NCBI RefSeq assembly: GCF_035599575.1
Contig: NZ_CP141179.1
Coordinates: forward strand, 1,116,001 to 1,180,000
Origin: Roseovarius sp. Pro17
GTDB taxonomy: Bacteria; Pseudomonadota; Alphaproteobacteria; Rhodobacterales; Rhodobacteraceae
DNA length: 64,000 nt
Direction: 5' to 3'
Shown one piece after another: positions 5,356 to 35,310 of the stretch (positions within the stretch are counted from its first letter, which is position 1; each line of letters starts with the position of its first letter). The position numbers were made by a program, and so were the translations under genes. A model generated the notes under the pieces. It was given only the letters and a program-made list of their open reading frames with translations, was not told the DNA's origin and made no database searches.

Positions 5356-5360
5356 TAACC
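5356..5360. repeat. Target site duplication, fabI-side copy (TAACC)
   Basis: Five bases directly flanking the 5'-TGTCA end of the element; an identical copy flanks the other end at 27650-27654. Five-base duplications are the rule for Tn7-type transposition. Confidence 0.9.
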
Positions 5361-5494
5361 TGTCATGTGCCACACAAACTTTCCGCAAAGAACTTTGAGA
5401 ACCCCTAATTGTTGAGTGAAATCAGCTACATGCAAAAGCTCTATTTTGTTTGACGCAGTAAATGGTCCGTGCTCGCCATAGAACATGTCCGCAA
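5361..5494 (+). repeat. Transposon end near tnsC with TnsB-type sites
   Basis: Terminal TGTCA followed by TCCGCAA at 5382-5388 and again at 5488-5494, the second within the 20-bp site GCCATAGAACATGTCCGCAA (5475-5494). A weaker copy (GGTCCGTGC) lies at 5464-5472. The arrangement of several short repeats per end is that of Tn7-family TnsB binding sites; binding itself is inferred. Confidence 0.8.
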
Positions 5495-5544
5495 AAAAAT
5501 GTTGAACAGAAACGCCATATTATAGGCAACCATCTGCTAGACAA

Positions 5545-5569
5545 CAAAAAACCCGACCTATTGGCCGGG
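5545..5569 (-). terminator. Terminator of the tns operon
   Basis: On the minus strand CCCGGCC pairs with GGTCGGG around a four-base loop and is followed by TTTTTTG. It lies about 100 bases after the tnsC stop, inside the transposon end, and would stop tns transcripts before they run into fabI antisense. Confidence 0.65.
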
Positions 5570-5665
5570 CTTTCTGAATTTGATCGAACAGTTTTTTGGC
5601 GGAGAAATGACTGGCAAAAGGGGCGGCTATCGGCACCGCCTTCTTACGCTACTGATCACATTGAA

Positions 5666-6706
5666 CTACCTTGCCTTTCCCAAGCGCGGACTCTTCTGAG
5701 TGACCAGTGTTTCATCTTGCATCTCATCAGGTTGCGCGAAAAGAACAGATGCATCGATGTTGTGCCAATCCTCCGACAGGAAAGGATTCATAGCGTCGTC
5801 GCATTCAGCAAGGTGGGTGAAGGTTCGCGCGAAATGGTGATCCAGAAGCGCAGGGTCTTCGGTCAATTTGGCCTGTTGGATGGCACCAATGATGAGGTCG
5901 ATCGCGATCCCGAGGCGGTTGCAACAGGCGACGAAGAAACGATCGATGAACTTGGAATCGTTTTCGATGAAGCCCTCCAGGTCGACCTCGGTTGTGAAGC
6001 TCTTGATCACTGTCCGGATCACTTTCGCATCTGTAGCCTTGGAGATGGGTCGCAGTTCGGTCGGTTTGATCCGGCGGCCGAGCTGCTGATCCTGATTGAG
6101 CATTTCCTTCAATTCCTCGGTGCCCGAGAGCACCAAGATGACCGGCCATTCCTTGTTCTGTGACAAGGACTTCAAGGTATTGATGACGGCCTTGCGTTGA
6201 GGCTTGTTTGCGTTGCCCCAGATATCCTGGGCCTCGTCGAAATGCAGGACAGTAACCTTCTGAGCTTTCAGTTGATAGTGAACCTTCTCCCATAGCACGG
6301 ACAGGGTGGCGTCGGTCATATTCCTGGTTGTCGTTGGATAACCGATTTCATCCATCACAGCCTCGGCGGCTGTTCGGAGCGTGGCAGGAGTGCGGACCCG
6401 AACGGACGCGATCTTTACAGGGTTGGGCCCACCGGGGCCTGTGCCAACGGAGAGTCGATCGAGTTCGGCGAACACCCATTCCAAGGTCCGGGTTTTCCCG
6501 GCACCTGTCGGTGCGACAAGTGCAAGACCATCTATCTTTCGCAGCGCTTTTAGAGATACTAGGCAATTCCTTTCTTCATGGAGGAGAAGGAGCTTGTTGA
6601 GGATGTCTGACTGCTGTTGGGTCTTCACAAATCGTTTCGAGAGGGTGGCCGCCGCAGACGCCGCCACTCTGATGTTTTCGATGGTGATCTTTTGTGCTCG
6701 TGTCAT
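5666..6706 (-). CDS. tnsC: TnsC/TniB-like AAA+ transposition regulator
   Basis: A 346-aa ATPase that in Tn7-type systems links the target-selecting TniQ/TnsD protein to the TnsAB transposase. Walker A is VAPTGAGKTRTLEW (about residues 69-82) and Walker B is VLHFDEAQDIWG. A sensor-like LVLSGTEEL follows. Its ATG overlaps the tnsB stop (TGATG), so the two are translationally coupled. It is the last gene before the terminator and the transposon end; the operon therefore reads outward, towards fabI. Confidence 0.88.
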   Translation of the reverse strand: MTRAQKITIENIRVAASAAATLSKRFVKTQQQSDILNKLLLLHEERNCLVSLKALRKIDGLALVAPTGAGKTRTLEWVFAELDRLSVGTGPGGPNPVKIASVRVRTPATLRTAAEAVMDEIGYPTTTRNMTDATLSVLWEKVHYQLKAQKVTVLHFDEAQDIWGNANKPQRKAVINTLKSLSQNKEWPVILVLSGTEELKEMLNQDQQLGRRIKPTELRPISKATDAKVIRTVIKSFTTEVDLEGFIENDSKFIDRFFVACCNRLGIAIDLIIGAIQQAKLTEDPALLDHHFARTFTHLAECDDAMNPFLSEDWHNIDASVLFAQPDEMQDETLVTQKSPRLGKAR

Positions 6707-8907
6707 CAGAATATCTCCGGCTCATCACCGCCTTCATTGTCGGCAATGGTTGCAATAGTTGTTATCTCTGCGGCTGCAGGGACTTGGCTCTTCGCGTCCA
6801 AGATCTGATCCGTGCGCTCATCGGAGAGGATGTCGACAATCTTGGTCACAGAACCTGTCACATCATCGCTGTCTTGCCCTATGATGTTCATGCCTCTGAA
6901 AAGCTGGTCACGATGGCGGTGGATTTCCGCATCTTTCAGACATGTGGGTCCAAGATCGAGCCGCTTGGCAGCCGCTGCCACCGTTGCACGGATGTCTTGA
7001 AGAGCAGTGCGGACCATTTCGCGATCCAAATCAGCATCTCCCCGGAAACGTTCACGCATGGCGCGCTCTGTGGCGACCCAGTCTGTCAGATGAACCTTGT
7101 CGAGAAAGCTCAGTTTCGCTTTCACAGGGTGCCACTTGTCGTCCCATCGTATGGCCACCCACCCAAGATCTTTCGGGTCGACGCGCACATCGACATCAGT
7201 TTTCCCTTTGGAAAGGAAGATGGTTTGCAAAAGCGGGCTGGCATATTCGATACCGAACAACGTGATACCTTGGTTCCCGATACGACGCTTGCCGGGCAGC
7301 CCGAATGCAGCGCGACGTGCGTAACCATCCGGCGGAAGATCCACGCCGTAGGTTGAGGTCAATCGATCCCAGGCGCGTGCCGGGGTTTCCCCGCCAAGCC
7401 CTGCATGCGGCAGGTTGTGATACACGTCGACTACGAAACGGGTCATGATACCTGTGATCTCGTCTGTGGTCAGACAGGCGTTGCCCTTGGCATCGTAATC
7501 GCCCTTCTCGATGAAATTGCCGAAGGTGCGTCCTGGAAGCTCTTCCATCATGGTTTTGCTCCATGTCCCGAAGACCCGCTCGACCGCGGCCCTGAGCATG
7601 GCAACGCCTGCGACCGTGTTGAGAAGACCGCATCCGATGTCGGTGACAGGGCCTTGGAATGCGCTGGAGATGAACCATTCGCCATTGTCAGAAGCTACTG
7701 TCCGCGCAAGGCCGCATTGGTTCCAAAGCCCCACAGCACCGTGGAAAGCCGCGTAGTCCGTCTTATCCATCGTTGTCATTTCCACGGCCCGAAGTGCAGA
7801 TTCGACCCCTGGATTTTGCGTAACTGTGAGGCCGACGATACATCGCGTGGCGCAATCGATCACGACGACGGCCCAGAGCCGCTGTTTTTTGAGAGCCTTC
7901 AATTGCTCCGGTGTCATGTCCTTGGCACGTCCACTTGCAATTGCGAGATTCATGACGTCCAGCTTCCATTCATCGATTTCGAGTCTTTCCATGGGAAACC
8001 TGACTTGAAGCCCAGACATGTTCAGCGCAAACTTTCGGTTGGCAACGCCAACACCTTCACGCTGGCATGTGACTGTGTAAGCATCCAGTGAATCTATCTG
8101 TCGATAAACGGTCCGCTCGCTGGGAGCGGTCAACGGCTCAAGCCCGTCCAGCGCCCGCTCCTCGTTGCGCACGTCGATCGCATCACGGACGTTGCTGGCA
8201 ATCTTGCGCTTGCTGGGACGGAGAGTGGTTGCATACTTAACGACCTCCTTTTGCAGGATGATCATAGCTTCCATGCTCAACCGACTCTGTGCCTTTCTTC
8301 CCTTCGCCTTGTGACAGGGAACGAAGGCGCGAGCGTCGAATCCGCACTGGACGCCGATCTTGATCAATTTTCGCCATGTCTTCACGGACGGAAGCTGGAA
8401 CTGTGTCACGATTTGTCGTGCATCCTTCCGCTTGTGAGCTTTGTCTTTCTGCGTTGTGCTGACGTTGCGGGTTTTGTCGCGAACCTTCTCTTCGATTTTC
8501 TGTTTTGCAGCCCAGACGGCCATATGCCCGGCCAGCTCAGGGTGCGCCGCCTCCATGCTAGCATCACTCAGGGTCATCTCACCCTTCAGGGTCAGGTTCT
8601 GGCCAAACCGGGCCAGTTCGCAGTCAGAGATGGCCTTGAGCCGCTTCTTTACCGGAAGATCGGCGAGAAATTCGGTATCAGAATTGCGGCGGACAGCAGC
8701 ACGGGACCGGCCAAAATGGCCACGCTCGATACGCACTTCTGGATTGTCGAGAAGGCTCAACATCTTTTCGTGCCGGATGGTAATAACCTGCTCAAGCTCA
8801 TCATCACTGGCGAAGCGGAATCCTTGCTCGGTTTGGTCGAGCCACCGGTAAGGCTGGTTATTGTAGATAAGCAGATCATGCTTGTCGAAATTGTAGTGGA
8901 AGGACAT
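6706..8907 (-). CDS. tnsB: TnsB/TniA-like DDE transposase
   Basis: A 733-aa transposase of the Mu/Tn7 TnsB retroviral-integrase family that binds the element ends and performs 3'-end strand transfer. The N-terminal part (about 170-290) is helical and basic, as expected for end-binding domains. The DDE catalytic residues are visible: Asp312 in LEIDEWKLD, Asp407 in VASDNGEWF and Glu443 in AAVERVFGTW. A beta-barrel region follows the core. An AAAGGAG box precedes the ATG. It lies between a tnsB-like fragment and tnsC, coupled on both sides by TGATG overlaps. Confidence 0.9.
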   Translation of the reverse strand: MSFHYNFDKHDLLIYNNQPYRWLDQTEQGFRFASDDELEQVITIRHEKMLSLLDNPEVRIERGHFGRSRAAVRRNSDTEFLADLPVKKRLKAISDCELARFGQNLTLKGEMTLSDASMEAAHPELAGHMAVWAAKQKIEEKVRDKTRNVSTTQKDKAHKRKDARQIVTQFQLPSVKTWRKLIKIGVQCGFDARAFVPCHKAKGRKAQSRLSMEAMIILQKEVVKYATTLRPSKRKIASNVRDAIDVRNEERALDGLEPLTAPSERTVYRQIDSLDAYTVTCQREGVGVANRKFALNMSGLQVRFPMERLEIDEWKLDVMNLAIASGRAKDMTPEQLKALKKQRLWAVVVIDCATRCIVGLTVTQNPGVESALRAVEMTTMDKTDYAAFHGAVGLWNQCGLARTVASDNGEWFISSAFQGPVTDIGCGLLNTVAGVAMLRAAVERVFGTWSKTMMEELPGRTFGNFIEKGDYDAKGNACLTTDEITGIMTRFVVDVYHNLPHAGLGGETPARAWDRLTSTYGVDLPPDGYARRAAFGLPGKRRIGNQGITLFGIEYASPLLQTIFLSKGKTDVDVRVDPKDLGWVAIRWDDKWHPVKAKLSFLDKVHLTDWVATERAMRERFRGDADLDREMVRTALQDIRATVAAAAKRLDLGPTCLKDAEIHRHRDQLFRGMNIIGQDSDDVTGSVTKIVDILSDERTDQILDAKSQVPAAAEITTIATIADNEGGDEPEIF

Positions 8908-9241
8908 CAGAGGTCTCCTTTGAGTGCGTGTTCATATCGGCGGAAGGCGGCGGTCAAATTTACGTTGTCCATTCTCGTCACGATCCTTTCACCGACGCGG
9001 GAAGCACGCTCGGTCTGCAATTTACAGTCACGCTGGTGACGCTGCGTGTTAGATTGTTGATGGAGATAGCGGAGCACAGACTCAGACTTCTGAGTGCCTC
9101 GACTTCGATTTTCGTCAGTCCTTTTGCCCATCCACACGAGGTCATGATGGCGTGCAAATTCACCGTCCATTCGTCGATCTCGACACGTTTCATCAACAAC
9201 ACGCGTTTGGGTTTGGGAAATTTTTTGTATCGGTGAGACAT
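8907..9241 (-). pseudogene. Frameshifted tnsB-like catalytic-core fragment
   Basis: Two overlapping frames together match tnsB residues about 303-395. The first (9241 to 8978) has KRVEIDEWTVNLHAIMTSCG, comparable to ERLEIDEW in TnsB, and keeps the first catalytic Asp. Homology then moves to a second frame (ERASRVGERIVTRMD, against ESALRAVEMTTMD), which stops at 8907. The second and third catalytic residues are missing. The fragment starts in a TAATG overlap with tnsA and its second frame ends in a TGATG overlap with tnsB, so operon coupling is preserved. It looks like a diverged partial duplication with one frameshift; programmed frameshifting is possible but unproven. Confidence 0.7.
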
Positions 9242-9933
9242 TAGAATTCTCCTTTGCGCACGGAAGCGTGCAAATCTATCAGGCCGGTGTTGGTGGGTCG
9301 CAAAACGCCGGTTCCGATCGCGCGGACAACAGCGCGAAAACCGCGACCGCCGAGGGGTGTGGCACCAATGAGACGGTCGATCCGGATGTCGCCGGTGAGT
9401 TGTTCCGCGAATTCGCGGACCACGTCATCAGCTACGGAATCTGGAGAATTTCTCGCCAGATGTAACAGCTCGGCATTCCGCACCTGAATAGGTGTAAAAT
9501 CCGCGTCCGTGATCACGATGAAACGGTCTGCGTGGGTCGGAATTGCATGTTGCTGCAGCGCAATTACCTGTTCGCGCATCTTTTCGGACTTGGCGTATTT
9601 CATTGGCTTCACCAAGATGCCGACACGGCCGCCATCCAGCATCAAGGCCAACAGATCCAGTGTGTGCGGGGTAAAACCCTCTGCACATGGCAGCATGATC
9701 CGCTGCTGCTCAACAACATCGAGAGCATCGGGGCGTGCCAACAAAAGATAGATTACCTTTTGTTCGAGACGGCTCTCGAAATGTATCCGTTTGCGGCGAC
9801 CGGGCTGTCCAGGAACGGGGACGACGACATAGCCGCGGTTGCTGATCGACGAGCGCGGGTGTATCCGGCGCATGGAAGCGGCGGCATCGGTCAGATGGAC
9901 AGGTGGTGGGAGGACGTTGTTCAATTCAGTCAT
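9241..9933 (-). CDS. tnsA: TnsA-like endonuclease (5'-strand cleavage)
   Basis: A 230-aa protein with the restriction-endonuclease-like fold of TnsA, which cuts the non-transferred strand so that the element moves by cut and paste. The family Glu is in HFESRLEQKV (about residue 53) and the catalytic Asp in PHTLDLLAL. The Lys is in GILVKPMKYA, but the residue two before it is Leu, where TnsA proteins normally have Gln or Glu. A GGAG ribosome-binding site precedes the ATG. It is the first gene of the outward-reading tns operon. Call is firm from context; full activity is uncertain. Confidence 0.8.
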   Translation of the reverse strand: MTELNNVLPPPVHLTDAAASMRRIHPRSSISNRGYVVVPVPGQPGRRKRIHFESRLEQKVIYLLLARPDALDVVEQQRIMLPCAEGFTPHTLDLLALMLDGGRVGILVKPMKYAKSEKMREQVIALQQHAIPTHADRFIVITDADFTPIQVRNAELLHLARNSPDSVADDVVREFAEQLTGDIRIDRLIGATPLGGRGFRAVVRAIGTGVLRPTNTGLIDLHASVRKGEF

Positions 9934-10270
9934 GATATCTCCGGTCCCGGAAGTCTGACCTCCGGGTTACGTGCAGGGGTTTTCTGGGATACGGCCACTG
10001 GGAAGAACGTTCCGAAGCGCATGGCTCCAACTGTTCTGCTGGTAGGCGGCCGCATGGCGTTTGCACCCGATTGGCATGTGTTGACCCACTGGATTTACCG
10101 GGGGACGTCACCCGTTTGGATTTGGGTGTGGACGTCGAAATTGATCCGGCTTGCACGTAAAGTGTAAGCTCAGGCAATTTATAGGACGCCGGCGAACGTC
10201 GGGTTTGTCATGTCTAAGGGGTTGAGCGGGGAACCCTTGCACTACTGATGGTGTTTGAGTAATGCTCGAA

Positions 10271-10342
10271 GTGTAGCTCGAGATGGGCTTTGCTCATTTC
10301 TACACGAACAGCGCTTCTCGTTGGCGCGAGATTTGCTGTTCG
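10271..10342. other. Tandem long hairpins, candidate structured RNA
   Basis: First hairpin 10271-10305: GTGTAG/CTACAC outside, with an inner stem GAGATGGGC against GCTCATTTC (G-U pairs allowed) around TTT. Second hairpin 10305-10342: CGAACAGC/GCTGTTCG outside and TCTCG/CGAGA inside. The two abut at one base. No T run follows, so they are not plain terminators. They could be an sRNA, a leader structure or a protein-binding site. Confidence 0.4.
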
Positions 10343-10991
10343 TTTCACTTGCTCGATCAGGTCATCATCTTTTCCTTTCACCGTTTTGTTTCTGAGCCCT
10401 CTGTTTCGGGGTTGGTTCGATTTTAGATGGTGGAAAAACGTATTTTCAAGCCCGAAAAATCACCTTAAGTCATTGATATTTTGCCATTTTTTTCGGTTAC
10501 GATCAGCGGGGCAAAAATAGCTCTCTCACGTTGGAGACCCGTATCTTGGGTGAACATCAGGTGTCACTGAATTCAGTCCACACAATATCAAGCGGTGATC
10601 CATAGCAAAAAGAAACCGTGATTTTGGAAACGTGAAAAGCGTTTAATTTCTCACGGGATTTTTCCGTAAGGAACGATCACACGCGCCATTTTTCAAAGTG
10701 ATAGGAGCTTGGTAAATAGTCATGATTTTGAGCTTTCTTGAACGATGTATTTGACAGGTTGCAAGGACCGATTCGGATCAACGGAAACGTCAAGATCAAG
10801 TATCGGATCTCCTCGCCTACGATTCCTGGACAGAGATCCTGATTGCTGAATGCCGAACAATGATTTCCGGATTAGCCCATCTATATTCTGGGAAGTTCAT
10901 TCCTGCTCCTTCGCCTCTTTATTGGCTGTCAATTTATAGCGCCAAGATAGGGAAAATACTGTCGACGGGCGAGTTCAGTTTGGCACGACGG

Positions 10992-11022
10992 ATAATATCT
11001 ATCATCTGCTGATAGATATTAT
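10992..11022. promoter_or_regulatory. Perfect 13-bp inverted repeat, candidate operator
   Basis: ATAATATCTATCA and its exact reverse complement are separated by five bases, 64 bases before the start of the HsdM/S-like gene. The A+T-rich symmetric design fits a dimeric regulator site. No controller-protein gene is evident next to it, so the binding partner is unknown. Confidence 0.5.
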
Positions 11023-11085
11023 TTCGGACAATCCTTAGCTTGATCTTTCATATCTTGATGACTTCGGACATGTCTTTAACGGCAC

Positions 11086-12885
11086 ATGCCACCGGAGTTC
11101 AGCGAAAAAATGGAAATGCCTTCGGAGATCGATATCAGCAGCTTCGAAGGTCTGACGCGGCTGTTTCGTTTCGCTGTTGGGCTGAGGGAAAACGACACTG
11201 GCCATGCTTCTCTTGCGCATCTTGAGAGCCGATTTGGCCTCGCACCTTATGTTCCAGCGTTCCGCGGTGCCCTCGAAGACTTTGCCCGGCAATTGGACGG
11301 GCTGGAACACAGCCAACGTTTCAAGACAGTTTGTGACTTAATCTTTGATGCGCTTCCCGATGCTGAAAAGCTTGACGATGAACTTGCCTCGGCACTTCTT
11401 GAAATCTGCTCCGATGCAGGGGTTGTGCGTTTTTCTTTTTCGTCGGCGATCCTCCCCTGCCTCTTGCACGCACAGAAAACGCAGCAATTTCAACAGAAAG
11501 CCGGTGCAGATTGTGAGGTCCGATATGCGGGAGTGGGGCTGGACAAAGAACTCATGGCATTTGCATCGCTCTTTCTGGATCTGGGGATTTACACCGAATC
11601 TAATCCTCCATGGGACCCGGACACGGTGTTCGACAATGGTGAGCCAAATTTTGAGACACCGGATCTCGAGATTGCATTTCCACCCGCAGATTTTAGATCG
11701 GATTCTGCGAGTCATCTCGATGCGAGCGTTCGAGCATCTCAGCTGCCCCGCGCAGTTGACCGCGGAAAATACGATCTTGAGAGCGTTATGCTTGCATATC
11801 TCTGTGAGGCCGAAGGGGCTGCTCTTGTTTTCACTTCAATGAATTTTCTCTCCTCCCCAAAACAATCACGGCTTTTGGCCCGCCAACATCTTCTTGACCT
11901 ATCGCGGGTTTCCCAAGTGACAGAACTAACAGTAAATGAGCGATGCCATTGCGCAATTGACCTAAGCAAAGCGGGTTATCCGAACGAGAACATTCGGATG
12001 GTGGTGACAAATATTCTGGAACATATCATCAGGCCGCCGCTGAGCCGGGGCCCCTTCCGCCCGAAGCTTGCGATGATATCAGTTGATGATATCCGGTCTG
12101 CCGGCGATGTTCTTAAACCTTCGCGCTATCTCGGATCCGGACCTACTGGCGGGCGCGATTTTACAGAAAAAATGAACAATATTTCACGATCAACGACACA
12201 TATCCTGGCTGACTATTTCGAAATTATCCGACCGAAAACAACGAAAAGAGATCCGGTTGGAACATTCCCCATTCAAGAAGTCCGTGCTGGCAATATCTCG
12301 GCGAATGGAGAAATGATGGGATCATTGCGCAAAATTAGCGTGCGTTCAACTTTGGCAGTCGGTTTGGAAGAACAGGTCATTAAAACAGGTGATATCTTGT
12401 TTGCACACCGAGGGCCCGTCGGCAAAGTTGCCTATGTGAATGACCCCAATATCCAAGACTCGAAAGTGTGGGCGGGTCAAACTCTCATGATTTTTCGTGC
12501 GCGTCGAAAGAGTTCGGCAGCACGGGCGACACTGTATTGCGACCCCAAAGTTCTGTTTATGTATATGCTCACACCAGATGTCCAAGCGAGCTGGAGCAGG
12601 GTCGCCACTGGTGATCGCAGTCCCGCTGTGCCGATAGGAATAATCGAGAGTTTTGGCTTGCCGGATAACCTCATACTTCCTCGAAAACCAAAGCGGAAAT
12701 CTTCGAGTGATAAGCTGGCTTCACCGAGCAGCTACACAGACATAATACTTTTGGAGTTTCAAAACAGGCAAAATGAGTTGGAAAGGCTTCGCGAAATTCA
12801 AATAGAGATGAATGATGGGTTGGATCGAGTTTCGAATGCGGCTTGGTCAAAAATGATCGGCCAAAGTGATCCCCCAAATGATTGA
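11086..12885 (+). CDS. Degenerate N6-methyltransferase fused to type I specificity domain
   Basis: A 599-aa protein. Residues about 100-310 follow the layout of HsdM-type N6-adenine methyltransferases, but the SAM-binding DPxCGSG motif is not visible and the NPPF motif is replaced by IAFPPADF, so catalysis is unlikely. Residues about 405-550 match HsdS target-recognition domains (IQEVRAGNIS, KTGDILFAHRGPVGKVAYV). A helical segment (QNRQNELERLREIQIEMND) follows, as in HsdS spacers. No hsdR is nearby. It lies between tnsA and tniQ, converging on tniQ. It may be a sequence-specific DNA-binding factor of the element or a defence gene. The start has no clear ribosome-binding site; ATG codons at 11110 and 11116 are alternatives. 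Confidence 0.55.
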   Translation: MPPEFSEKMEMPSEIDISSFEGLTRLFRFAVGLRENDTGHASLAHLESRFGLAPYVPAFRGALEDFARQLDGLEHSQRFKTVCDLIFDALPDAEKLDDELASALLEICSDAGVVRFSFSSAILPCLLHAQKTQQFQQKAGADCEVRYAGVGLDKELMAFASLFLDLGIYTESNPPWDPDTVFDNGEPNFETPDLEIAFPPADFRSDSASHLDASVRASQLPRAVDRGKYDLESVMLAYLCEAEGAALVFTSMNFLSSPKQSRLLARQHLLDLSRVSQVTELTVNERCHCAIDLSKAGYPNENIRMVVTNILEHIIRPPLSRGPFRPKLAMISVDDIRSAGDVLKPSRYLGSGPTGGRDFTEKMNNISRSTTHILADYFEIIRPKTTKRDPVGTFPIQEVRAGNISANGEMMGSLRKISVRSTLAVGLEEQVIKTGDILFAHRGPVGKVAYVNDPNIQDSKVWAGQTLMIFRARRKSSAARATLYCDPKVLFMYMLTPDVQASWSRVATGDRSPAVPIGIIESFGLPDNLILPRKPKRKSSSDKLASPSSYTDIILLEFQNRQNELERLREIQIEMNDGLDRVSNAAWSKMIGQSDPPND

Positions 12886-12989
12886 GACAGTTAATTTATT
12901 CGAACTGGCTTGGCGAAGCTGATATCCGTCCATTTTTTGCCTTAAATTTCGAACGCCTTCGTGTAGAGTCTGTCGATGTGGCACGAAAT

Positions 12990-14867: not shown

Positions 14868-15236
14868 ACGTCGACTGAATGTAAGGTGTGGGAGCCTCAG
14901 ATATCACGAGGTCGGGCAGATGTTGCAAGTCCAGAATTCAATATATGTCAGGCTTCATGAAGTAGCCGTTCGAGAAAAAATGAACGTGTTTTCTTATTTT
15001 TTTACAACGCGGTAGGTGGAGATTTGGAAATTGAAGGTGTTGACATGGTCGTCGATCATTGAGTATCAAATGGGCACTATGACATTTAGCATCCGGCATA
15101 TTCATCAGCGCACAATTCGCGCGATTTGAACCCCTATAGGGGGCCGGTCACTTCTGTCTATTCCAGCAGTAATGATGCCATAACGGACGAGCTTTAGCTC
15201 GCGGGTCCCTCGGTCTTTTCAACCAAGGAGGACACG
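14868..15236. promoter_or_regulatory. Divergent regulatory region, tniQ versus AAA+ gene
   Basis: About 370 bases with no gene. It holds a 12-bp palindrome CCCCTATAGGGG at 15131-15142 and a short CGAGC-TTTA-GCTCG stem at 15187-15201 ahead of the 33-aa upstream frame. Promoters for tniQ (minus) and the AAA+ gene (plus) must lie here; their boxes cannot be fixed by eye. Confidence 0.4.
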
Positions 15237-17684: not shown

Positions 17685-18156
17685 GCGGACGCCTCTGACC
17701 CGTTCCGAAATGATGTCGCGGATTGGAGCAAAGAATACCGCGCCGGAACTTAGAGTCAGGCTCGGACTTCATCGGCGAGGATTTCGGTATCGGCTTCACC
17801 GAAAGGATCTTCCAGGAAAGCCTGACATCGTCCTCCCAAGGCATAACGCAGTGATAATGGTGCATGGATGTTTCTGGCATGGGCATCAGAGGTGCAGATA
17901 TTTCAGACTCCCCCGTTCGAATGTTGAATTCTGGAAGGACAAAATTCAGAAAAATCGGAACCGGGATGACAGGCAGATAAACGAGCTTATTCGACTTGGC
18001 TGGCGGGTCTCGGTAGTCTGGGAATGTGCAACACGAAAGCTTCCGACCGAATTGCTGATTGATAAAATCGCAGTTTGGTTGTCTGGGAGCGAAATAGTAA
18101 ATGAGATCGCCGAACACACTGGTGCATCGGAAGAAGTGGAACTAAGAACGATATGA
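17677..18156 (+). CDS. vsr: Very short patch repair (Vsr)-like endonuclease
   Basis: A 159-aa protein with the Vsr fold. Catalytic Asp50 is in GKPDIVLP; His63 and the zinc ligands lie in [12 protein letters not shown]. Classical Vsr nicks T:G mismatches left by 5mC deamination. In restriction operons Vsr-like proteins may instead serve as the cutting subunit. A TTG start at 17677 overlaps the methyltransferase stop by eight bases. The next gene starts with ATGA overlap. Confidence 0.92.
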
Positions 18157-19784: not shown

Positions 19785-20608
19785 TGATCACGGCAAAACG
19801 TCAGCTTATTGCCGATGCTCTTCTGACCGGCACCGGTGCCGAGGTCGCGCTGGCCATCAATAACGATGGGCTCCGCTCCGGCATGCGGCTTTGGTTTGCC
19901 GACCTCGATGAGCGTCACGGGCCTATTGCAGAGATCAAACCCCACGGTCTGAAATCCCATCGCGTTCGGCTGACGTTCGGAAATTTCTCGGGTGCAGTAA
20001 TTCGTCAGATTGGAAAGGCTCCAATTGAGGATCAGCAATTGGCAAGGGCGTTGATATCTTCAATCAGTGCTGAGCATGAAGTGTCGATCCAAGGCCAAGA
20101 TCTGGAAGACTGGATCATCGCAGACGGTAGCTTTCACCTGCAGGCTATCGTGAGACATGTCACAGGGCCCGATACGGATGACGCGGTTCGGCGCACATGC
20201 CAAGAGGTAGTGGTTCCGGCCATGGCTGCGATGGCTGAATTGATTGGATATGATGTTGTGGATATTGACGCTGTCGAAGATATGACCGCTTTCGAAGGCG
20301 CGGTGCATCCTGCCTACGTAAAGCGCCGGGAGCGAAATCCACGAAATCGATTGCTCTGTATCCGGATCCACGGGGATAGGTGCGCGGCCTGCGGCATTGA
20401 ACCACGACTGACATATGGCGTCGAAATCGCGATAATGGAGGTTCACCATCTTGAGCCTCTCGCCAATTTGGTGGAACCTCGTCCCTACGATCCGGCAATC
20501 GATCTGATACCACTGTGCCCCAGCTGTCATCGCGCGGTCCACACCAGACGTCCGGTTCCACTCAGCATTGCCGAACTTCAAAAGCGCATGGAGGACGCAC
20601 GTGCCTGA
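19784..20608 (+). CDS. HNH endonuclease with N-terminal unknown domain
   Basis: A 274-aa protein. The C-terminal third is an HNH nuclease of the zinc-ribbon kind: CAAC (200-203), the catalytic MEVHHLEP (219-226), and CPSCHRAVH (245-253), resembling McrA-like nucleases. The first 180 residues are mixed alpha/beta and not recognised; they may bind DNA or the partner ATPase. The start overlaps the GHKL stop (TAATG), and its end overlaps the helicase start. With Vsr it gives this operon two candidate nucleases. Confidence 0.85.
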   Translation: MITAKRQLIADALLTGTGAEVALAINNDGLRSGMRLWFADLDERHGPIAEIKPHGLKSHRVRLTFGNFSGAVIRQIGKAPIEDQQLARALISSISAEHEVSIQGQDLEDWIIADGSFHLQAIVRHVTGPDTDDAVRRTCQEVVVPAMAAMAELIGYDVVDIDAVEDMTAFEGAVHPAYVKRRERNPRNRLLCIRIHGDRCAACGIEPRLTYGVEIAIMEVHHLEPLANLVEPRPYDPAIDLIPLCPSCHRAVHTRRPVPLSIAELQKRMEDARA

Positions 20609-22412
20609 TTACGTTTCCATGCCTGTCACATTTGAAGGGATGCGCAACCGGATACCTGCCGGTCACTCCCTATCCGAAAGACTACTCGAACCTGTCATTC
20701 TTCTTGATAGGAAAAATGGCCGCCTGTCTGCCAGCCTTGGCGGCGTCAGGGTCATCAGGGGGCAGCAACATGAATTAAAGGCACCGACTGCGGAACACTC
20801 ATGGGTTATTGATGGCACGGTCTTGCGACCGCTTCCAAAGGATTCGCCTAGCCTTTTCAGGACAATGGTGGGAGATCTGGATCCAGAGGATATTCCTTTC
20901 AGCGTCGCAATCAGGCTGTTGAGAACGCTCGATGAGCGGATTTCTACTTCTGCTTCTGAAGAAGTCCTAATTCCAGCGGGGAATGCCGCGGATCAAAAAA
21001 CCGATCCGGTAACACCAACAGGTCTCAATGCGGAGCTTTTTCCCTATCAATCCCGCGGCGTGCAATGGATGTGGGATTCCATTGCAGGGACCGGGGGTGT
21101 TATTCTTGCGGACGAGATGGGTTTGGGCAAAACGATTCAGATTATTGCGCTGCTCCTGATGGACATGCCTGATCCATCAAGCCCGGCGTTGATTGTCTGC
21201 CCGACGAGCTTGATTGCCAATTGGGTCCGGGAAATTGAGCGCTTTGGTCCCAGCCTCGACGTCATGGTGCATCGGGGTGCTCATCGAACCGGTATCTCCA
21301 GCGGCCTTCAGCAATCAAGGGTAGTGATTACGACCTATGATACCATGGTCAACGATATCTCTATTTTTTCTGGTCTCGAATGGTCTTGGGTGATTTGTGA
21401 CGAGGCTCAAGCCATCAAGAACCCTCTCTCCAATCGCCGTCAGGCCATCATTACCATACCGCGAAAGCGCTCCATTCCGATGACCGGCACTCCAGTAGAA
21501 AACACCCTTCTCGACCTGTGGTCGCTTGCTGACTTTGCGATACCAGGGCTGCTCGGAAGCCAAGATGAGTTCGAGGCGGAGTTCCCGGACAGTGTGGAAG
21601 CGGGTCAGCGGCTTGGCGGACTGACGGATCCGATAATACTGAAGAGACGGGTCGGGGATGTAGCGACGGACCTTCCAGAACGAATGGACATCGACATACC
21701 GCTCGAGCTCGATGATCGCCTCATCGATCACTACCGGGAAGTCAGGGATGCAACCCTCGCCAAATATCCTGTCGCGGGCGCCCTTGTGGCGACGCTTCAG
21801 CTTCAACTCCTCTGCGCACACCCCTGGCTCAGACAAAATGCTGACGAGGAAGAGGAAGCCGATATTGTTCCAGCGTCGAGTATGCCACTCATCACCCCGA
21901 AGATGGAACGCATTGTGGCCCTGCTCAGCGAGGCGTTTGCAAATGATCGGAAGGTTATTGTATTCGCATTGTTCAATCGTATCGGAGACCTACTGAAACA
22001 AGTATGTGCTGATATGCATGGTGTTCACTGGGGTGCAATCAATGGGTCTACGGCTCAGGAGGATCGGCAACAGATCGTTGATGTTTTTTCCGAGCATGAC
22101 GGGGCCGCCTGCCTCGTCCTTAATCCAAAAGCAGCCGGCGCTGGTCTCAATATTACGGCGGCTACTGTAGTGATCCACTTCACGCCAGTTTGGAACCCTG
22201 CTGTCGAGGCACAAGCAAGCGCTCGTGCGCACCGCCGCGGGCAGACAGAACCCGTTACCGTTTATCGCCTATTTTTCAAAGATACTGTGGAGGAGATTAT
22301 GATAGAACGATCGGCATGGAAAAGTGATCTTGCAAATGAGACTGTTCCTGTATCGACACGCGATGCTGATGACCTGAAGCGGGCGCTCTCAATCCTTCCG
22401 GTGAAATCATGA
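20601..22412 (+). CDS. SNF2-family helicase/translocase
   Basis: A 603-aa superfamily 2 Swi2/Snf2 ATPase. Motif I DEMGLGKTIQIIALLL, motif II VICDEAQAIKNP, motif III MTGTPVENTLLDLWSLAD, motif V LNPKAAGAGLNIT and motif VI SARAHRRGQTEPVTVYRL are all present. Such proteins move along double-stranded DNA without unwinding. GTG 20601 is chosen as start because GGAGG lies six bases before it and the reading frame overlaps the HNH stop by eight bases; a TTG at 20568 is a poorer option. In related operons the motor slot can be filled by other helicases. Confidence 0.88.
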   Translation: MPDYVSMPVTFEGMRNRIPAGHSLSERLLEPVILLDRKNGRLSASLGGVRVIRGQQHELKAPTAEHSWVIDGTVLRPLPKDSPSLFRTMVGDLDPEDIPFSVAIRLLRTLDERISTSASEEVLIPAGNAADQKTDPVTPTGLNAELFPYQSRGVQWMWDSIAGTGGVILADEMGLGKTIQIIALLLMDMPDPSSPALIVCPTSLIANWVREIERFGPSLDVMVHRGAHRTGISSGLQQSRVVITTYDTMVNDISIFSGLEWSWVICDEAQAIKNPLSNRRQAIITIPRKRSIPMTGTPVENTLLDLWSLADFAIPGLLGSQDEFEAEFPDSVEAGQRLGGLTDPIILKRRVGDVATDLPERMDIDIPLELDDRLIDHYREVRDATLAKYPVAGALVATLQLQLLCAHPWLRQNADEEEEADIVPASSMPLITPKMERIVALLSEAFANDRKVIVFALFNRIGDLLKQVCADMHGVHWGAINGSTAQEDRQQIVDVFSEHDGAACLVLNPKAAGAGLNITAATVVIHFTPVWNPAVEAQASARAHRRGQTEPVTVYRLFFKDTVEEIMIERSAWKSDLANETVPVSTRDADDLKRALSILPVKS

Positions 22413-22840
22413 CCGGCCATGTATTTAGTAAAATGCTGAGCGCCAATGATGTCGGCACGACTGGTGGACATCAAGCGGGTATTCTGGTTCCAAAAGGGGA
22501 AAAAGAATTACTCGCCATTTTACCGCAGCTCGACCCAGAAATCAAAAACCCGGATGCATGGTTGGAATGTGTCGACGACGCCGAACAAGCACTTCGTTTC
22601 CGTTTCGTCTACTATAACAACAAGTTACACGACGAGAATGGAACTCGAAACGAGTTCCGAGTGACCCATATGACCAAATGGTTTCGGGACAATGGCGCGC
22701 GCGCGGGCGACGAGTTCATGATATCCTTAATGCCGGACGAGAAACGCTATTCGATCCGCATCGTTCGTCCCGATTTAGATGACAAGAGCGACGAAGATGG
22801 CGTTCGTATCCGTCTGTCGGGTTGGCGGCGGGTCCACTGA
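22409..22840 (+). CDS. Stand-alone EcoRII N-terminal-like DNA recognition domain
   Basis: A 143-aa protein that resembles the effector-binding N-terminal domain of EcoRII, a B3-like pseudobarrel. The start region FSKMLSANDVGTTGGHQAGI carries the typical S-x-N-D-x-G-x-T-G-G-H-Q pattern. In EcoRII this domain binds a second copy of CCWGG and controls the catalytic domain. Here the nuclease domain is absent, so it should serve as the sequence reader for the nuclease and motor proteins of the same operon. ATGA overlap with the helicase; last gene of the operon, nine bases from the converging AIPR stop. Confidence 0.8.
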   Translation: MTGHVFSKMLSANDVGTTGGHQAGILVPKGEKELLAILPQLDPEIKNPDAWLECVDDAEQALRFRFVYYNNKLHDENGTRNEFRVTHMTKWFRDNGARAGDEFMISLMPDEKRYSIRIVRPDLDDKSDEDGVRIRLSGWRRVH

Positions 22841-22848
22841 CCAACGGA

Positions 22849-24963
22849 TCAATGTGGCCTTGAAATGGCTGATATCCTGATCCGGGGCGTATCAGCTTCA
22901 TCAATATAGCCCTCATCTCTCGCGCGCGACATGATCTGCTCTGCAATGACGGACTGTTTTCCTGAAGGTATGCGGCCGGGCAACATGCTACAGGTCCGGA
23001 GGATCCCGTCCTCTGTCGGGCTGAACATTCGGTTCAAACGCCCCCAATCTCTGAGGCGGGACCAGACTGGTGCCCCTGCTGCGATAACGTTCTGCTGCGC
23101 TGTAATTTCCGCATCCATTGAGGTGTTCCTGCGATCGTCGCGTTGTGTGGACCGGGCAACCTCTGGGGCGATGACGCAGTTGTCGAAGTCGTCTCCATAT
23201 TCGACCTCTGCTCGCTCAATTGTCGCCCAGCAAGCCTGTTTCTTTCCCCATTCAGTAATGTTGTTCACACCCGCCTCCGGCGCTGTGATCACCGCCGTCG
23301 CAGCTTCAGCCGCGATCAGAAGCGTATCGTTCAACGCCCTCGGGACAAATTGGGCTCGCCATACTGAATCAAGGTCGATCAGTTTCTCAGCTTCGTGGGC
23401 GTCAGACACAACTTTGGCAATCGCGTAGGTGATGATGTTGGCCCGGTATCCGCCGGGATACCAAGGTTGCTTCGGGACGACCTTCTCCAGGTGGCGGAAG
23501 ATGATTATTTTTGCCACCAGCCGCTTAAACCATGTCTCATCGAACTTGCTATCACTTCGGGACCATTCACTACCAACTGTCTGCGCAAACGTGCCGAAAT
23601 TCTTCTGTGCGCCTTTGCTGACTGTGTCCGGCTGCATCCTGAAGCTCATCTCGACCTTGGCAAGGTCGGTCTTCACAAAATACTGGGCTTTCGGATTCTC
23701 AAGATCGAAACGTCTTTTTTCTGCTGGTGATTTTTTGGCACGTTCAACTAAATACTGTCCTCGTGCGCGCTCATAGAACCACTTCGTTTCTTTGTTCGTG
23801 CCCTCTGCCGCAGGAGCGAGTAGACGGCGTGAAAACTGTTCCATTCGCATGTGGAATGGATGATTGGAAAAAAAGTCCGCCGCACTGACCTTGTTCTGGC
23901 TGTTAGCATATTTAGAAATGAAGGGAACGATTTCCTCGGAAACTTCGTCTGGAACGACCGTCAACTTCAATTGGACATGGACGTTATCAAGTGTTTCGGG
24001 CGACAGGGATAGCGCGTTATGCAGAGATGCAGTGGTTTGTCCCCCGTTCACAATTTGCAAATTCGTGGCCTTGACGATTTGCAGGCCGTTCTCGGACCTC
24101 ACCACCTCGACCTCATCTGCCGTAGCCGACAGTCCATTGTTGTAGCTGAAAAACATCTCGGGCTCTTCTTTGATCGTGTCCCGAATGCCTCTGTTCACGG
24201 CACCGCGCGCCTGAAGGAAGCTTCGAACGTTGGACTCGAGAAGTCGTGCCCCCCATTTATCATAAATTCTCGCAAGTTGAGCTCCACCCATAACGATCAA
24301 GTAGCTGTCGAGCCTGTCACCGCTCTTGGATGCGGCCAGCGCAGGAAGGGCCGCGCCGAAGTCATCTTGAAAATTTACGACGATCTTCTCACGGGCGTGC
24401 CCCGAGGTTTCAAAACGATGGAATCTCGACAGATCCCATACGTTGTATGTGACAGGAATATCCGCAATCTTCCCGGCAAGAACGGCGTCCGTTCTTGCGC
24501 TGTAGATGGCATTGGTCATCAGAATAAGTTTGACCTTAGTGATGGATGACCATGCGGATGTGATCATTGAAGCTGCGCCAGCCTCCGAAGATCCATCTAT
24601 CAATTCTGAGCGGAAAGCGGCACGGCGTGATGCGGCCACAAAATTGATCAGGCTTCCAAAGGATTTTTTAGCGTCCGCGGCGTTGATTTTTATAGGAGTG
24701 GCTTCGGGATGGAAATCACTGACGATCACACTCAATACGCCCTCGGACTCTCGCGGGTCGCCGCCAATTGCATCAATCCGGACCGGCTTTCCCGAACTTC
24801 TGTCCGAAAAGCCGACCCAGTCCGCAGTTACGATCTCGCCCTCCATTTCAAGGCGGTTCGCCATACGCTCGAAAAACGCCACCTCTGAAGGAACTGAGCT
24901 CTCATCGGAGATTTCTCTAAGTTCAGCTATAATCGCAGCATGATATTTGATTGTTTCTTCCAT
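22849..24963 (-). CDS. AIPR (abortive infection phage resistance) family protein
   Basis: A 704-aa protein with the AIPR core: FFSYNNGLSA (271-280), then TNLQIVNGGQTTASLHNAL (300-318), then KYANSQNKVSAADFF. Members were first noted in phage abortive infection and recur in restriction-type operons; the biochemical activity is not settled. The region before the core (1-260) has alternating strands and helices without a recognised domain. It is the last gene of a minus-strand set converging on the methyltransferase operon, 230 bases behind the PD-(D/E)XK gene. Confidence 0.82.
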   Translation of the reverse strand: MEETIKYHAAIIAELREISDESSVPSEVAFFERMANRLEMEGEIVTADWVGFSDRSSGKPVRIDAIGGDPRESEGVLSVIVSDFHPEATPIKINAADAKKSFGSLINFVAASRRAAFRSELIDGSSEAGAASMITSAWSSITKVKLILMTNAIYSARTDAVLAGKIADIPVTYNVWDLSRFHRFETSGHAREKIVVNFQDDFGAALPALAASKSGDRLDSYLIVMGGAQLARIYDKWGARLLESNVRSFLQARGAVNRGIRDTIKEEPEMFFSYNNGLSATADEVEVVRSENGLQIVKATNLQIVNGGQTTASLHNALSLSPETLDNVHVQLKLTVVPDEVSEEIVPFISKYANSQNKVSAADFFSNHPFHMRMEQFSRRLLAPAAEGTNKETKWFYERARGQYLVERAKKSPAEKRRFDLENPKAQYFVKTDLAKVEMSFRMQPDTVSKGAQKNFGTFAQTVGSEWSRSDSKFDETWFKRLVAKIIIFRHLEKVVPKQPWYPGGYRANIITYAIAKVVSDAHEAEKLIDLDSVWRAQFVPRALNDTLLIAAEAATAVITAPEAGVNNITEWGKKQACWATIERAEVEYGDDFDNCVIAPEVARSTQRDDRRNTSMDAEITAQQNVIAAGAPVWSRLRDWGRLNRMFSPTEDGILRTCSMLPGRIPSGKQSVIAEQIMSRARDEGYIDEADTPRIRISAISRPH

Positions 24964-25193
24964 AGAGGTTTTTCTCCTGAACCGCTCCGATACTCACGCA
25001 TTTTTCCGCGGTGGGCGCAATGCGATCTACCTTTAGTTGTTCCAAGAACTTGGGGTCAGTAGGACATATTCATGCAGGAAATAAGGCGACGTCGGACTTT
25101 GCCATACTCTAACGGGTGCAAAGGGATTCAGTAAGATATTAGCAGTCCGCGGGGGTGGTCCCACAACGCTCGCCCTACACTCTTCAGAACGAG

Positions 25194-25814
25194 CTACTTT
25201 TCGGGTTGGTGATATAGCGGGATAATCGTGTGACGCACATGAAAACCACAGCCCGAATTCTGGCAGGTGTGGGACGTCCGGAAAAAGAGTTGAGGCTTTT
25301 CGATGTCCTCAACCAACGTTATTTTCGGATCAGTTCCGAGAAGCCGTTTTTTCCATTCCTCCAATACATCGATAGCGTTGCCACCGCGATAATAGATGAT
25401 GAGTTCTCCATGATCTCGGCCAAGCATCGCCGTTCCGTAGCGAGTAGATAGCTGGCCAAAGCCATCCTGAAGCCACCCATAGCTTTTGTGGACTTTAGCT
25501 TCCCCCAGCCACATGAAGCCATGGTTCCCCTCTACAACGATGTCGCAGTGGCCGTTCACATCCTGCTCGTTCCGTGCGGCTATTCCGCCAAAGCTCAACA
25601 TCTGAGCGACCTGTTTGCTGAGCTGGTTTTCGTCCAGCTTAACATCAATTTTGCGCCCATCGACCAGTCGGCTATAGCATTCCGTCAGCGCCTCTTCGAG
25701 GATCTCGAGTCGGTCTTCATGTCCAGTTGCAAACTGCCAACGGAGCATCCGTCCGCCTGGTCCGTCTCCGAAGAACTTTAGATAGTCGCCAATCGATGTA
25801 TTTTCAGGATTCAT
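25194..25814 (-). CDS. PD-(D/E)XK nuclease-like protein
   Basis: A 206-aa protein with a restriction-endonuclease-like core: Glu62 in KLDENQLSKQ, Asp91 in NGHCDIVVEG, Glu105 and Lys107 in WLGEAKVHK, and Gln121 in DGFGQLSTRY. These fit the E...D...ExK...Q pattern. A longer frame begins 28 residues earlier, but ATG 25814 overlaps the preceding stop by 11 bases and is the expected coupled start. It lies between an unknown acidic protein and the AIPR gene, and is the likely nuclease of that module. Confidence 0.72.
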   Translation of the reverse strand: MNPENTSIGDYLKFFGDGPGGRMLRWQFATGHEDRLEILEEALTECYSRLVDGRKIDVKLDENQLSKQVAQMLSFGGIAARNEQDVNGHCDIVVEGNHGFMWLGEAKVHKSYGWLQDGFGQLSTRYGTAMLGRDHGELIIYYRGGNAIDVLEEWKKRLLGTDPKITLVEDIEKPQLFFRTSHTCQNSGCGFHVRHTIIPLYHQPEK

Positions 25815-26208
25815 CTGAGATGTCTTTCCTGACCGAATAGTAAAGATGGACGTGACGCATTGGATCCGAAACAAGGTTTCCAGACACGGGGTGCGCAAGC
25901 TTGCCTGTGTTTATCAGTTCTCGGAAAGATTCATCGTCAAGGTGAAGCTGCCCATTTTCAGGATCGTCGATGTAACCGTGGGCTTCCAAGACCGCTGCTT
26001 CAAAGGTGCTGAGGATACTCAACGCCGAGGGCAGTATTTGTTGCAGCTCATCATCTTTCAGGCATCCGAAAAAAAATGGGAGTGTAAGAAAATCCCCATC
26101 ATCGTCTGAAAGGGATTCTAGCGTTTCTATGATAGCCAGACAGGCGCCACGCATCTCTGCATCCAGAGATTTTGTAGCCAAAGCCTTTTTTGCCTGGTGA
26201 AATTCCAT
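25804..26208 (-). CDS. Unknown 134-aa protein of the AIPR module
   Basis: No family recognised. The protein is acidic and mostly helical (for example CLAIIETLESLSDDDGDFL), with a C-terminal part rich in His and Tyr. No membrane segment or signal peptide. It starts four bases after the stop of the 354-aa gene and overlaps the PD-(D/E)XK gene by 11 bases, so the three are one operon. It could be a small partner or inhibitor of the nuclease; this is only an idea from position. Confidence 0.6.
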   Translation of the reverse strand: MEFHQAKKALATKSLDAEMRGACLAIIETLESLSDDDGDFLTLPFFFGCLKDDELQQILPSALSILSTFEAAVLEAHGYIDDPENGQLHLDDESFRELINTGKLAHPVSGNLVSDPMRHVHLYYSVRKDISDES

Positions 26209-26212
26209 TTTT

Positions 26213-27277
26213 CTATTCTTGCACTGAATCTGACAGAAACTGTGCCTTTTTTCCCAATCGCTCGATCACAAACTCATAGTCTGTCGAGCGAACACAATCC
26301 CTTATAAGCGCGCCGGTAATAATGGGGTTGCCACCTTCGCCCTGCCCCGAAGGGCCCGATGCCGAGAGCGATATTGCTGGTTGATAGAACTGATTGTCCT
26401 CTGAGAAGCCCCATTCAACGGTGATTTTGTAGATTGCTATCGCCTCGACGGCGCCTTTGCCTGCGACGTGGTAGGGTTCATTGCGTTGATCGGCGTCCAA
26501 GCGGCGTCGGGGCATTTTTTCATCTTTAACTCCTCCGGTAGTGGTCTGGAATGTCATCTGTGTAACTGTCCCTTCCTTCGGATCGTCGTAGAATGGACGG
26601 ACCGCCGGGAACAAATTTACTGACTTGTCCAGATTGACGATGCCCCAGCTGTTCACGACACCTTTGAGAGCGGAGTGAATGCCATGCACATCTGCTTCCG
26701 GTATACCTTTTGGGTAATCCACCCGGATTTCCAAAAAGTCGCGGTGGTGTGGCACCCAGATGACGTGGAACATCTGGACCGGCTGACGAACCAGGCCGAC
26801 TACTTCTTCATACCGGCTTCGCATGTCCTTGGGATGTTCAAATTCCGTGAACGGGATTTCCTCACGAGTCTTTACCATGAGAACTGAACTTAAGACTACG
26901 CCAATGCCGTCTTCATTGCTTTCAACCTGCACCACATCAATGTCACCGGAGCCGGCCTGAAGGTCCTTGTCTTTCATCAGGTGGGGATATCGATGATAGG
27001 CTGGGATGTCCGCAGGTTCTTGCTCTTGGATTGCAGCCTGTAGAACGTCGCGGGCCGATGAATCGATTTTGTATAGCTTTGTGTATTTTTCGCCGCACAG
27101 AATATGTTCGATCAAGCCATCTTCAATCTTGCCGGTATCAAATTTCTGAGGTGATGCGTCGAGCTTTTTGAGTGTCCCGTCCCAACCGTGACTGGTTGAA
27201 ATTCCGGCTGAATTGAGCAGCTTCTTTGCATTTGTCCAACTCATACGGTGCCGGAGCGTGCGGAACATCTTCTTCAT
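26213..27277 (-). CDS. Unknown 354-aa protein, first gene of the AIPR module
   Basis: No domain is recognised. After a basic N-terminus (KKMFRTLRHR) comes a stretch resembling a small helical DNA- or protein-binding unit (SWTNAKKLLNSAGISTSHGW). The rest is mixed alpha/beta with several beta-rich segments (for example VVQVESNEDGIGVVLSSVLM). ATG 27277 follows an AAAAGG box; a TTG three bases earlier is the alternative. It heads the minus-strand operon beside the cargo end of the transposon. Its constant company with AIPR and nuclease genes could be tested in other genomes. Confidence 0.6.
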   Translation of the reverse strand: MKKMFRTLRHRMSWTNAKKLLNSAGISTSHGWDGTLKKLDASPQKFDTGKIEDGLIEHILCGEKYTKLYKIDSSARDVLQAAIQEQEPADIPAYHRYPHLMKDKDLQAGSGDIDVVQVESNEDGIGVVLSSVLMVKTREEIPFTEFEHPKDMRSRYEEVVGLVRQPVQMFHVIWVPHHRDFLEIRVDYPKGIPEADVHGIHSALKGVVNSWGIVNLDKSVNLFPAVRPFYDDPKEGTVTQMTFQTTTGGVKDEKMPRRRLDADQRNEPYHVAGKGAVEAIAIYKITVEWGFSEDNQFYQPAISLSASGPSGQGEGGNPIITGALIRDCVRSTDYEFVIERLGKKAQFLSDSVQE

Positions 27278-27579
27278 CAATAAACCTTTTTGACATAAAC
27301 CTCAGGTTGATACCCTGCCGGGTTTTCAATGCGTGCGAAAGCAGAAAGTAGGTCCGCCCTTTCCGTCTCGATGGGTGCTGCAAACAATGTGACGAACCAT
27401 ATGGTTTTGCGCTGAACGAAAATGCCTGGCACTTTAAAGCGTCATAGGTGCGAGCACCGCTTTTTGAGTTGAGATCCTTTTATTCGCTGCGGATCTGTGG
27501 GCCAGTTCCTGCGCCATCAGCTGAGAACCCCTTAAAGAGCGCACCAACGCGAGAACTCAATTCATCAGGGAAACCCCGA

Positions 27580-27649
27580 TTGCGGACGCGTTCTATGGCA
27601 ATTGCGGACCAAAACCTGTCAATTGCGGCAAATTTGCATGCATCTGACA
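27580..27649 (-). repeat. Transposon end on the cargo side with TnsB-type sites
   Basis: Read inward on the minus strand: TGTCAGATGC, then GCCGCAA at 27623-27629, TCCGCAA at 27602-27608 and TCCGCAA at 27580-27586. The 20-bp site at 27580-27599 (minus strand GCCATAGAACGCGTCCGCAA) matches the site at 5475-5494 at 18 of 20 positions. Nothing else is seen in the roughly 300 bases between here and the start of the 354-aa gene. Confidence 0.8.
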
Positions 27650-27654
27650 TAACC
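27650..27654. repeat. Target site duplication, second copy (TAACC)
   Basis: Identical to 5356-5360 and directly adjacent to the transposon end. The insertion point is 15 bases from the stop codon of the glycosyltransferase-like gene. Confidence 0.9.
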
Positions 27655-35269: not shown

Positions 35270-35310
35270 CGATTGACCTTTGCCGAGAGCACGGTCTACC
35301 CAAAGAGGCA

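Follow-up and report, generated by a model that had tools for sequence, protein, structure and literature searches.

The question raised by this locus is why a Tn7-like transposon should keep, back to back with its transposition genes, a gene for a protein that resembles a fusion of the type I restriction-modification (R-M) subunits HsdM and HsdS. The window, a stretch of 64,000 nucleotides (nt) from Roseovarius sp. Pro17, is confirmed to contain a complete-looking Tn7-like (TnsABC + TniQ) transposon at positions 5361-27649. Its HsdM-HsdS fusion gene is divergent from tnsA, and the encoded protein seems, from its sequence, to have lost its enzyme activity. On balance we lean towards the fusion being a captured, enzymatically dead R-M protein that acts as a self-regulated local regulator, perhaps also of the divergent tns operon. 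The chances are about even that Tn7-like transposons captured the dead protein as a dedicated, self-regulated component of the tnsA side and traded it, together with its operator, between lineages.

A profile search of genome contigs with alignment A1 gave six further loci (L116-L121), making seven with the window. In every one of the seven, all of which have gene context, the fusion gene adjoins tnsA in the opposite orientation. The DNA up to 10 kb on each side of these loci was compared all against all. Only tnsA, tnsB, tnsC, tniQ and the fusion gene of the window have homologues in the other six loci, tniQ not being found in the DNA compared for L120; the cargo otherwise differs among the seven. 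The fusion gene is followed by tniQ in the window, L116, L118 and L121, and tniQ is located beside tnsC in L117 and L119. The elements otherwise differ in cargo, yet this gene keeps its place next to tnsA; it is probably not ordinary cargo. Small open reading frames (ORFs) of 100-113 residues are found in the gap between tnsA and the fusion gene in L117 and L119.

The fusion protein and the transposase TnsB do not share the same history. The fusion proteins of the window and L116 are 57% identical, while their TnsB proteins are only 25% identical; for L116 and L121 the corresponding values are 49% and 68%. In the TnsB tree L116, L118, L120 and L121 form one clade (support 100/100), which is rejected by the fusion-gene tree (approximately unbiased test, p-AU 0.003). 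The fusion-gene tree groups the window with L116 (91/91, not starred), and this grouping is rejected by the TnsB tree (p-AU 6e-50). One long branch is present in each tree (L117 and L120), which weakens the exact placements. Given this conflict between the two trees, the fusion gene has most likely moved between transposon lineages with its position kept.

What kind of protein is encoded by this gene? A protein search that scored 7,998 candidates returned 47 proteins at E <= 0.001, ranging from 563 to 623 residues, with the window's own protein first. No further members of the family were found in plasmids or in IMG/VR; a search of IMG/VR with the alignment of the other, R-M-linked family gave one weak match of 25% identity, and 121 further-drawn genomes gave three matches, all at R-M-type loci already known from the analysis. 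The fusion protein has no NCBIfam match and only a sub-threshold match to Pfam Methylase_S, and a sequence search of the PDB with the A1 profile gave no match. In the model, both an HsdM-like and an HsdS-like fold are present, as in type I R-M proteins and in the HsdM-HsdS fusions that precede hsdM, and the sequence link to type I R-M runs through the P0053 family. CamA, M.TaqI and type IIG enzymes were considered as specific relatives and set aside, the matches being to shared methylase folds. For Esub1 (8vsq), a literature search listed no paper under that name.

The S-adenosylmethionine (SAM) motif I, [DE]PxxGxG, is absent from all 43 aligned sequences in A1 and all 53 in A2; it was recovered in all four HsdM sequences used as a positive control. 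Motif IV, sought as [NDS]PP[FYW] after the fourth strand, is not conserved there in the 43 rows. The residue before PP at this position is F in 37 rows, A in two, and Y, S, L and C in one each. The string [NDS]PP[FYW] does occur in 24 of the 43 rows, in P0001 at 173-176; there it follows strand 3 of the model and would not represent motif IV. The window protein further differs from type I R-M proteins in that no partner R-M subunits are located beside its gene, and in that the target-recognition domain (TRD) region is conserved across the family. Elsewhere, dead HsdM-HsdS fusions that precede type I hsdM and hsdS/hsdR were seen in scanned loci L104, L149, L150 and L151; the same layout in L124, L125 and L148 was judged by gene sizes only. 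A small conserved ORF beginning with MNQRG precedes such R-M-linked fusions.

The regions between tnsA and the fusion gene of the seven loci were compared by k-mers, and a palindrome, CTATCA-N5-TGATAG, was found. It is exact in six loci and has one mismatch in L121, the spacer always being 5 bp, and it is located 52-98 nt before the start of the fusion ORF used. After dinucleotide shuffling, repeated 500 times, no palindrome was shared by more than two regions, a number reached in two shuffles. No copy of it within one mismatch is present in the other loci longer than 5 kb that were compared; of the loci added later, this check covered L167. Genome searches, which are a partly independent check, found one exact copy in the window's genome, at the fusion gene, in addition to a one-mismatch site elsewhere; five further host genomes have one exact copy each, always at the fusion gene. 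Among the control genomes, G318 has no exact site and G182 has one, away from its tns locus. A second copy with one mismatch is located inside the fusion gene of L118. The fusion gene and the palindrome behave as a module. A split palindrome with a 5-bp spacer is the expected target of a dimer of single-TRD specificity proteins.

Two other features of these intergenic regions were considered. Several of the seven elements share terminator-like hairpins with a TTGGCG loop, at a distance of about 120-390 nt on the upstream side of tnsA (window 10316-10331, L116 9336, L118 3853, L121 4661); as a strict hairpin with a 6-bp stem this loop is not enriched. A blastn comparison of the seven regions for a long conserved non-coding RNA gave short matches only.

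The arrangement allows us to propose the following mechanism. A dimer of the fusion protein would bind the palindrome through its single TRD and the C-terminal helix, in the manner in which half-HsdS proteins recognise split palindromes, minus the methylation. The bound protein might then control the promoter of its own gene and, perhaps, also the tns operon on the other side. Upon entry into a cell without the fusion protein a burst of expression would be expected, with silence afterwards. The target itself would be chosen by the TnsD-like TniQ, plausibly at the 3' end of fabI. We infer the binding of the palindrome by the fusion protein, and any control of tnsABC from this site is likewise only inferred, because the palindrome lies 553-1065 nt away from tnsA.

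This distance is one of several points that weigh against the regulator. The core of the element in G182 (L167) is 80% identical to that of L119 over a stretch of 6.35 kb that takes in about 420 nt upstream of tnsA. Neither fusion gene nor palindrome is present there; instead, a type I hsdM gene is located about 1.7 kb upstream of tnsA. It follows that an element can do without the fusion gene, and a separate promoter for tnsABC is probable. In addition, the motif was discovered in the same seven regions in which it was counted, no comparable palindrome is found upstream of the distant R-M-linked fusions, and a promoter scan of 9700-11300 gave no more than chance. In loci without the fusion gene, 12 of the 15 scanned neighbours have no helix-turn-helix (HTH) match; several of these 12 ORFs look spurious, and L111 was anchored on TnsB. 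HTH-type proteins divergent from tnsA were noted in three such loci, L108 (14809-15267), L115 (11418-11963) and L110 (8292-8948); the match in L110 is above the Pfam cut-off, and those in L108 and L115 are below it, but these two proteins share 37% identity. In L152 (G455, 8126-8332) a short piece from the tail of the HsdM-HsdS family, possibly a remnant, is located about 3 kb upstream of a tnsA.

The dead protein might, alternatively, be cargo or a counter-defence factor, for example a dominant-negative against type I restriction by the host, or simply one more part of a defence system, the tnsA side being merely a favoured first cargo slot. We regard this as rather unlikely, but a number of observations fit it. 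The nearest relatives outside transposons precede type I hsdM with hsdS/hsdR in four of four scanned loci, a type I R-M operon with such a fusion lies beside tnsA in G318, and a methylase-like ORF is present about 8 kb further on in L120. The related core in G182 without the gene and the failure of the fusion-gene tree to follow the TnsB tree are also compatible with cargo. However, the other cargo differs in the seven loci, whereas the fusion gene is always adjacent to tnsA, divergent, and preceded by the same palindrome. Its TRD region is conserved, and in the window, L116, L118 and L121 the next gene is tniQ and not hsdM, hsdS or hsdR.

It is more improbable still that the fusion protein selects targets as TnsF or TnsE do, guiding TnsC/TniQ to a site in the DNA. 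Faure et al. 2023 (PMC10293859) describe TnsE, TnsF and selectors based on Cas proteins. In that description TnsF of Tn6022 offers a precedent, as an inactivated enzyme kept beside TniQ/TnsABC and reused as a selector, and the fusion gene is similarly conserved beside the tns genes. TnsF, however, is derived from a tyrosine recombinase and selects comM, and there is no sign of target selection by the window protein. If the palindrome is the recognised site, its sole exact copy in each genome is found within the element, away from the insertion site, and for this reason target selection was not adopted as the main reading. Moreover, TniQ is already of TnsD size (625 residues), and the fusion gene moves between elements with TnsB only 25% identical. 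It is equally doubtful that another regulator, of the host or of the element, uses the palindrome as its operator, with an unrelated role for the fusion protein: the binding assumed above is putative, but for a host regulon two or more sites in each genome would be expected, and among the proteins that the loci share, leaving aside the transposition machinery, the fusion alone is a candidate for sequence-specific DNA binding.

Returning to the self-regulated regulator, it is useful to compare it with the co-opted regulators of other Tn7-like elements, CvkR (MerR-type) of V-K CRISPR-associated transposons (CASTs) and RtaC/RtbC (Xre) of I-F3 CASTs. The V-K regulator gene is reversed beside cas12k, and CvkR binds a conserved palindrome, according to PMC9938897 and PMC11406308. 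These regulators, however, are of the ordinary HTH type and belong to CRISPR-carrying elements, while the window candidate is restriction-derived and its regulatory role putative. In the sources consulted, silencing of the transposase in non-CRISPR Tn7-like transposons is little described. Among the papers listed by a literature search that covered few subscription journals, no report was seen of a Tn7-like core gene that encodes a restriction-derived protein. The main text of PMC10293859 does not contain the words methyltransferase, restriction or HsdS, and specificity subunits are named among R-M cargo in PMC8649781. With a restriction-derived protein and a defined candidate operator in seven elements, the idea of a regulator is directly testable. 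If it is true, there would be a class of transposon regulators built from restriction enzymes and not from HTH proteins, and a natural case in which a type I specificity module has been turned into a regulator with a single site in the genome, which would help in understanding the evolution of TRDs.

The features of the locus are collected in Table 1.

Table 1. Positions of the transposon, its ends, genes and putative operator in the window
Feature	Position	Strand	Remarks
Whole Tn7-like element	5361..27649	.	TGTCA/TGACA termini; 22,289 bp
Target-site duplication TAACC, left copy	5356..5360	.	Direct reading
Target-site duplication TAACC, right copy	27650..27654	.	Direct reading
Left end	5361..5494	+	Putative TnsB sites CCGCAA at 5383-5388 and 5489-5494
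Right end	27580..27649	-	Three CCGCAA sites on - strand: 27623-27628, 27602-27607, 27580-27585
tnsC (TniB AAA ATPase)	5666..6706	-	346 aa; PF05621, E 2.8e-17
tnsB transposase	6706..8907	-	733 aa; PF09299
Degenerate tnsB fragment	8978..9241	-	87-aa ORF between tnsA and tnsB; 32% to own TnsB
tnsA-like endonuclease	9241..9933	-	230 aa; homology to neighbours with sub-threshold PF08722
Palindrome, putative operator	10992..11022	.	13-bp arms, ATAATATCTATCA-TCTGC-TGATAGATATTAT
Palindrome core CTATCA-N5-TGATAG	10999-11015		Putative operator
HsdM-HsdS fusion, apparently dead	11086..12885	+	599 aa; translation probably starts at 11110 (591 aa), in agreement with database entry P0006
tniQ/tnsD-like	12990..14867	-	625 aa; PF06527, E 9e-16
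Lon-like AAA ATPase	15283..16386	+	Cargo
Dcm-like cytosine methyltransferase	16452..17684	+	Cargo
Vsr endonuclease	17677..18156	+	Cargo
GHKL (MzaB-like) ATPase	18153..19784	+	Cargo
HNH nuclease	19784..20608	+	Cargo
SNF2 helicase	20568..22412	+	Cargo
EcoRII N-terminal domain protein	22409..22840	+	Cargo
AIPR protein (MzaE/AbiU-like)	22849..24963	-	Cargo; convergent to preceding cargo genes
Three ORFs without Pfam or NCBIfam match	25194..27280	-	Cargo; 25194-25898, 25804-26208, 26213-27280

A preliminary description of this DNA had given the ends, the TAACC duplication and the length of the element, and direct reading agrees with it in each of these. The left terminus reads TGTCATGTGCCA and the right terminus ATGCATCTGACA, and the two ends match in inverted orientation at 18 of 20 positions (GCCATAGAACATGTCCGCAA / GCCATAGAACGCGTCCGCAA). 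The window contains 61 TGTCA and 57 TGACA, and among 1,600 TGTCA/TGACA pairs more than 3 kb apart three have matching outer 5-mers, where about 1.6 would be expected; for this reason a terminus with a duplication is, on its own, no proof of an element. The repeated putative TnsB sites separate the pairs. Within 150 nt, CCGCAA occurs twice on the left and three times on the right of the claimed pair and not at all at either end of the two other matching pairs, against a background of about 0.07 for each strand of a 150-nt stretch. The CCGCAA-type sites and the inverted pair of the earlier account are thus present, while the recent mobility that it proposed is conjectural.

The end sequences were also sought elsewhere, as had been suggested, and both occur outside the window, since G346 (L105) has a left end homologous to that of the window element (68.6% over 220 bp) abutting a copy, somewhat shortened, of the sites at the right end. 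The TnsC proteins of the two are 78% identical. The direct junction of the left end with the right-end sites (G346:C6, 1582-1860) could be a remnant or two abutting elements, and a second tnsC fragment is located at 3557-3919 of this locus. The element shares with Tn7 and Tn7-like transposons the tnsABC genes, a long TniQ, TGTCA termini with a 5-bp target duplication, several TnsB-type sites at each end, and insertion right after the 3' end of a conserved gene. It differs in its fabI-adjacent site and in the extra dead HsdM-HsdS gene divergent from tnsA.

The genes tnsA, tnsB, tnsC and tniQ/tnsD, claimed earlier, are open frames, and together they are those of a Tn7-like element, with Pfam matches for TnsC, TnsB and TniQ and homology only for TnsA. 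The window TnsA has no Pfam match; it is 24-31% identical to the proteins in the TnsA position of L116, L117 and L120, whose own matches to PF08722 TnsA are weak and do not reach the cut-off. Relatives of TniQ are found in 58 and of TnsB in 71 of 295 family genomes, both counts including the host's own genome. In other genomes the best long matches are 35% identical for TniQ and 33-38% for TnsB; shorter pieces reach 52% over 99 residues for TniQ (G110) and 49% over 102 residues for TnsB (G346, at a contig edge). Three more TniQ-like genes occur elsewhere in the host genome (G000:C1, near 2059809, 2131379 and 274716). The first of these adjoins tnsB and tnsC (L111), and the TniQ match there contains two stops. 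No TnsE domain was found in the Pfam scan of the element ORFs, the only search made for it. CRISPR guidance was considered, with no search aimed at it: Rfam at gathering level gave only a SAM-SAH riboswitch (window 35309-35356) and RNase P RNA (52273-52703), both outside the element, and repeats were sought at the ends only.

The element begins 66 bp past the stop codon of its left neighbour, fabI, for which FabI models rank first in NCBIfam, with scores that stay under the cut-offs. A beta-ketoacyl-ACP synthase gene precedes fabI, and the right neighbour is a glycosyltransferase-like gene. Among 35 other genomes drawn from the same genus, the fabI end is strongly matched in 34 and the glycosyltransferase-like gene in 33, and the two genes are adjacent without an insert in genus relatives. 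In G011 the matched stretches end 55 nt apart; the gap is larger in other relatives. The predicted empty site is ACTTAACCCCTTGAAC; the spacers of the relatives are too diverged for comparison letter by letter, and no TAACC is recognisable there. As an attachment gene shared with other elements fabI was rejected: no Tns homologue is found in 38 loci around fabI or the glycosyltransferase gene, many with just 1.5 kb of flank, and neither gene has a homologue in the other long transposon loci compared.

The cargo had been called almost entirely defence-like. This holds for most of the recognisable cargo, 7 of the 11 cargo ORFs matching restriction or defence-type families, but not for the HsdS-like gene, which is set apart above. 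The Dcm-like methylase, Vsr and the EcoRII N-terminal domain are located in one apparent operon (16452-22840) with the GHKL, HNH and SNF2 proteins. CCWGG is the common site of Dcm and EcoRII, which suggests a single recognition site for the system. The GHKL, SNF2, HNH, EcoRII-type, cytosine methylase, Vsr and AIPR proteins of the cargo are also known from MORC/paraMORC operons and MZA. The MzaB and MzaE matches, however, are far below the NCBIfam cut-offs (179.5 bits against 850 and 339.3 bits against 1050), so that assignment to MZA is not made. R-M operons of MORC proteins with SWI2/SNF2, HNH or EcoRII-like nucleases, a cytosine methylase and Vsr were predicted by Iyer et al. 2008 (PMC2292703).

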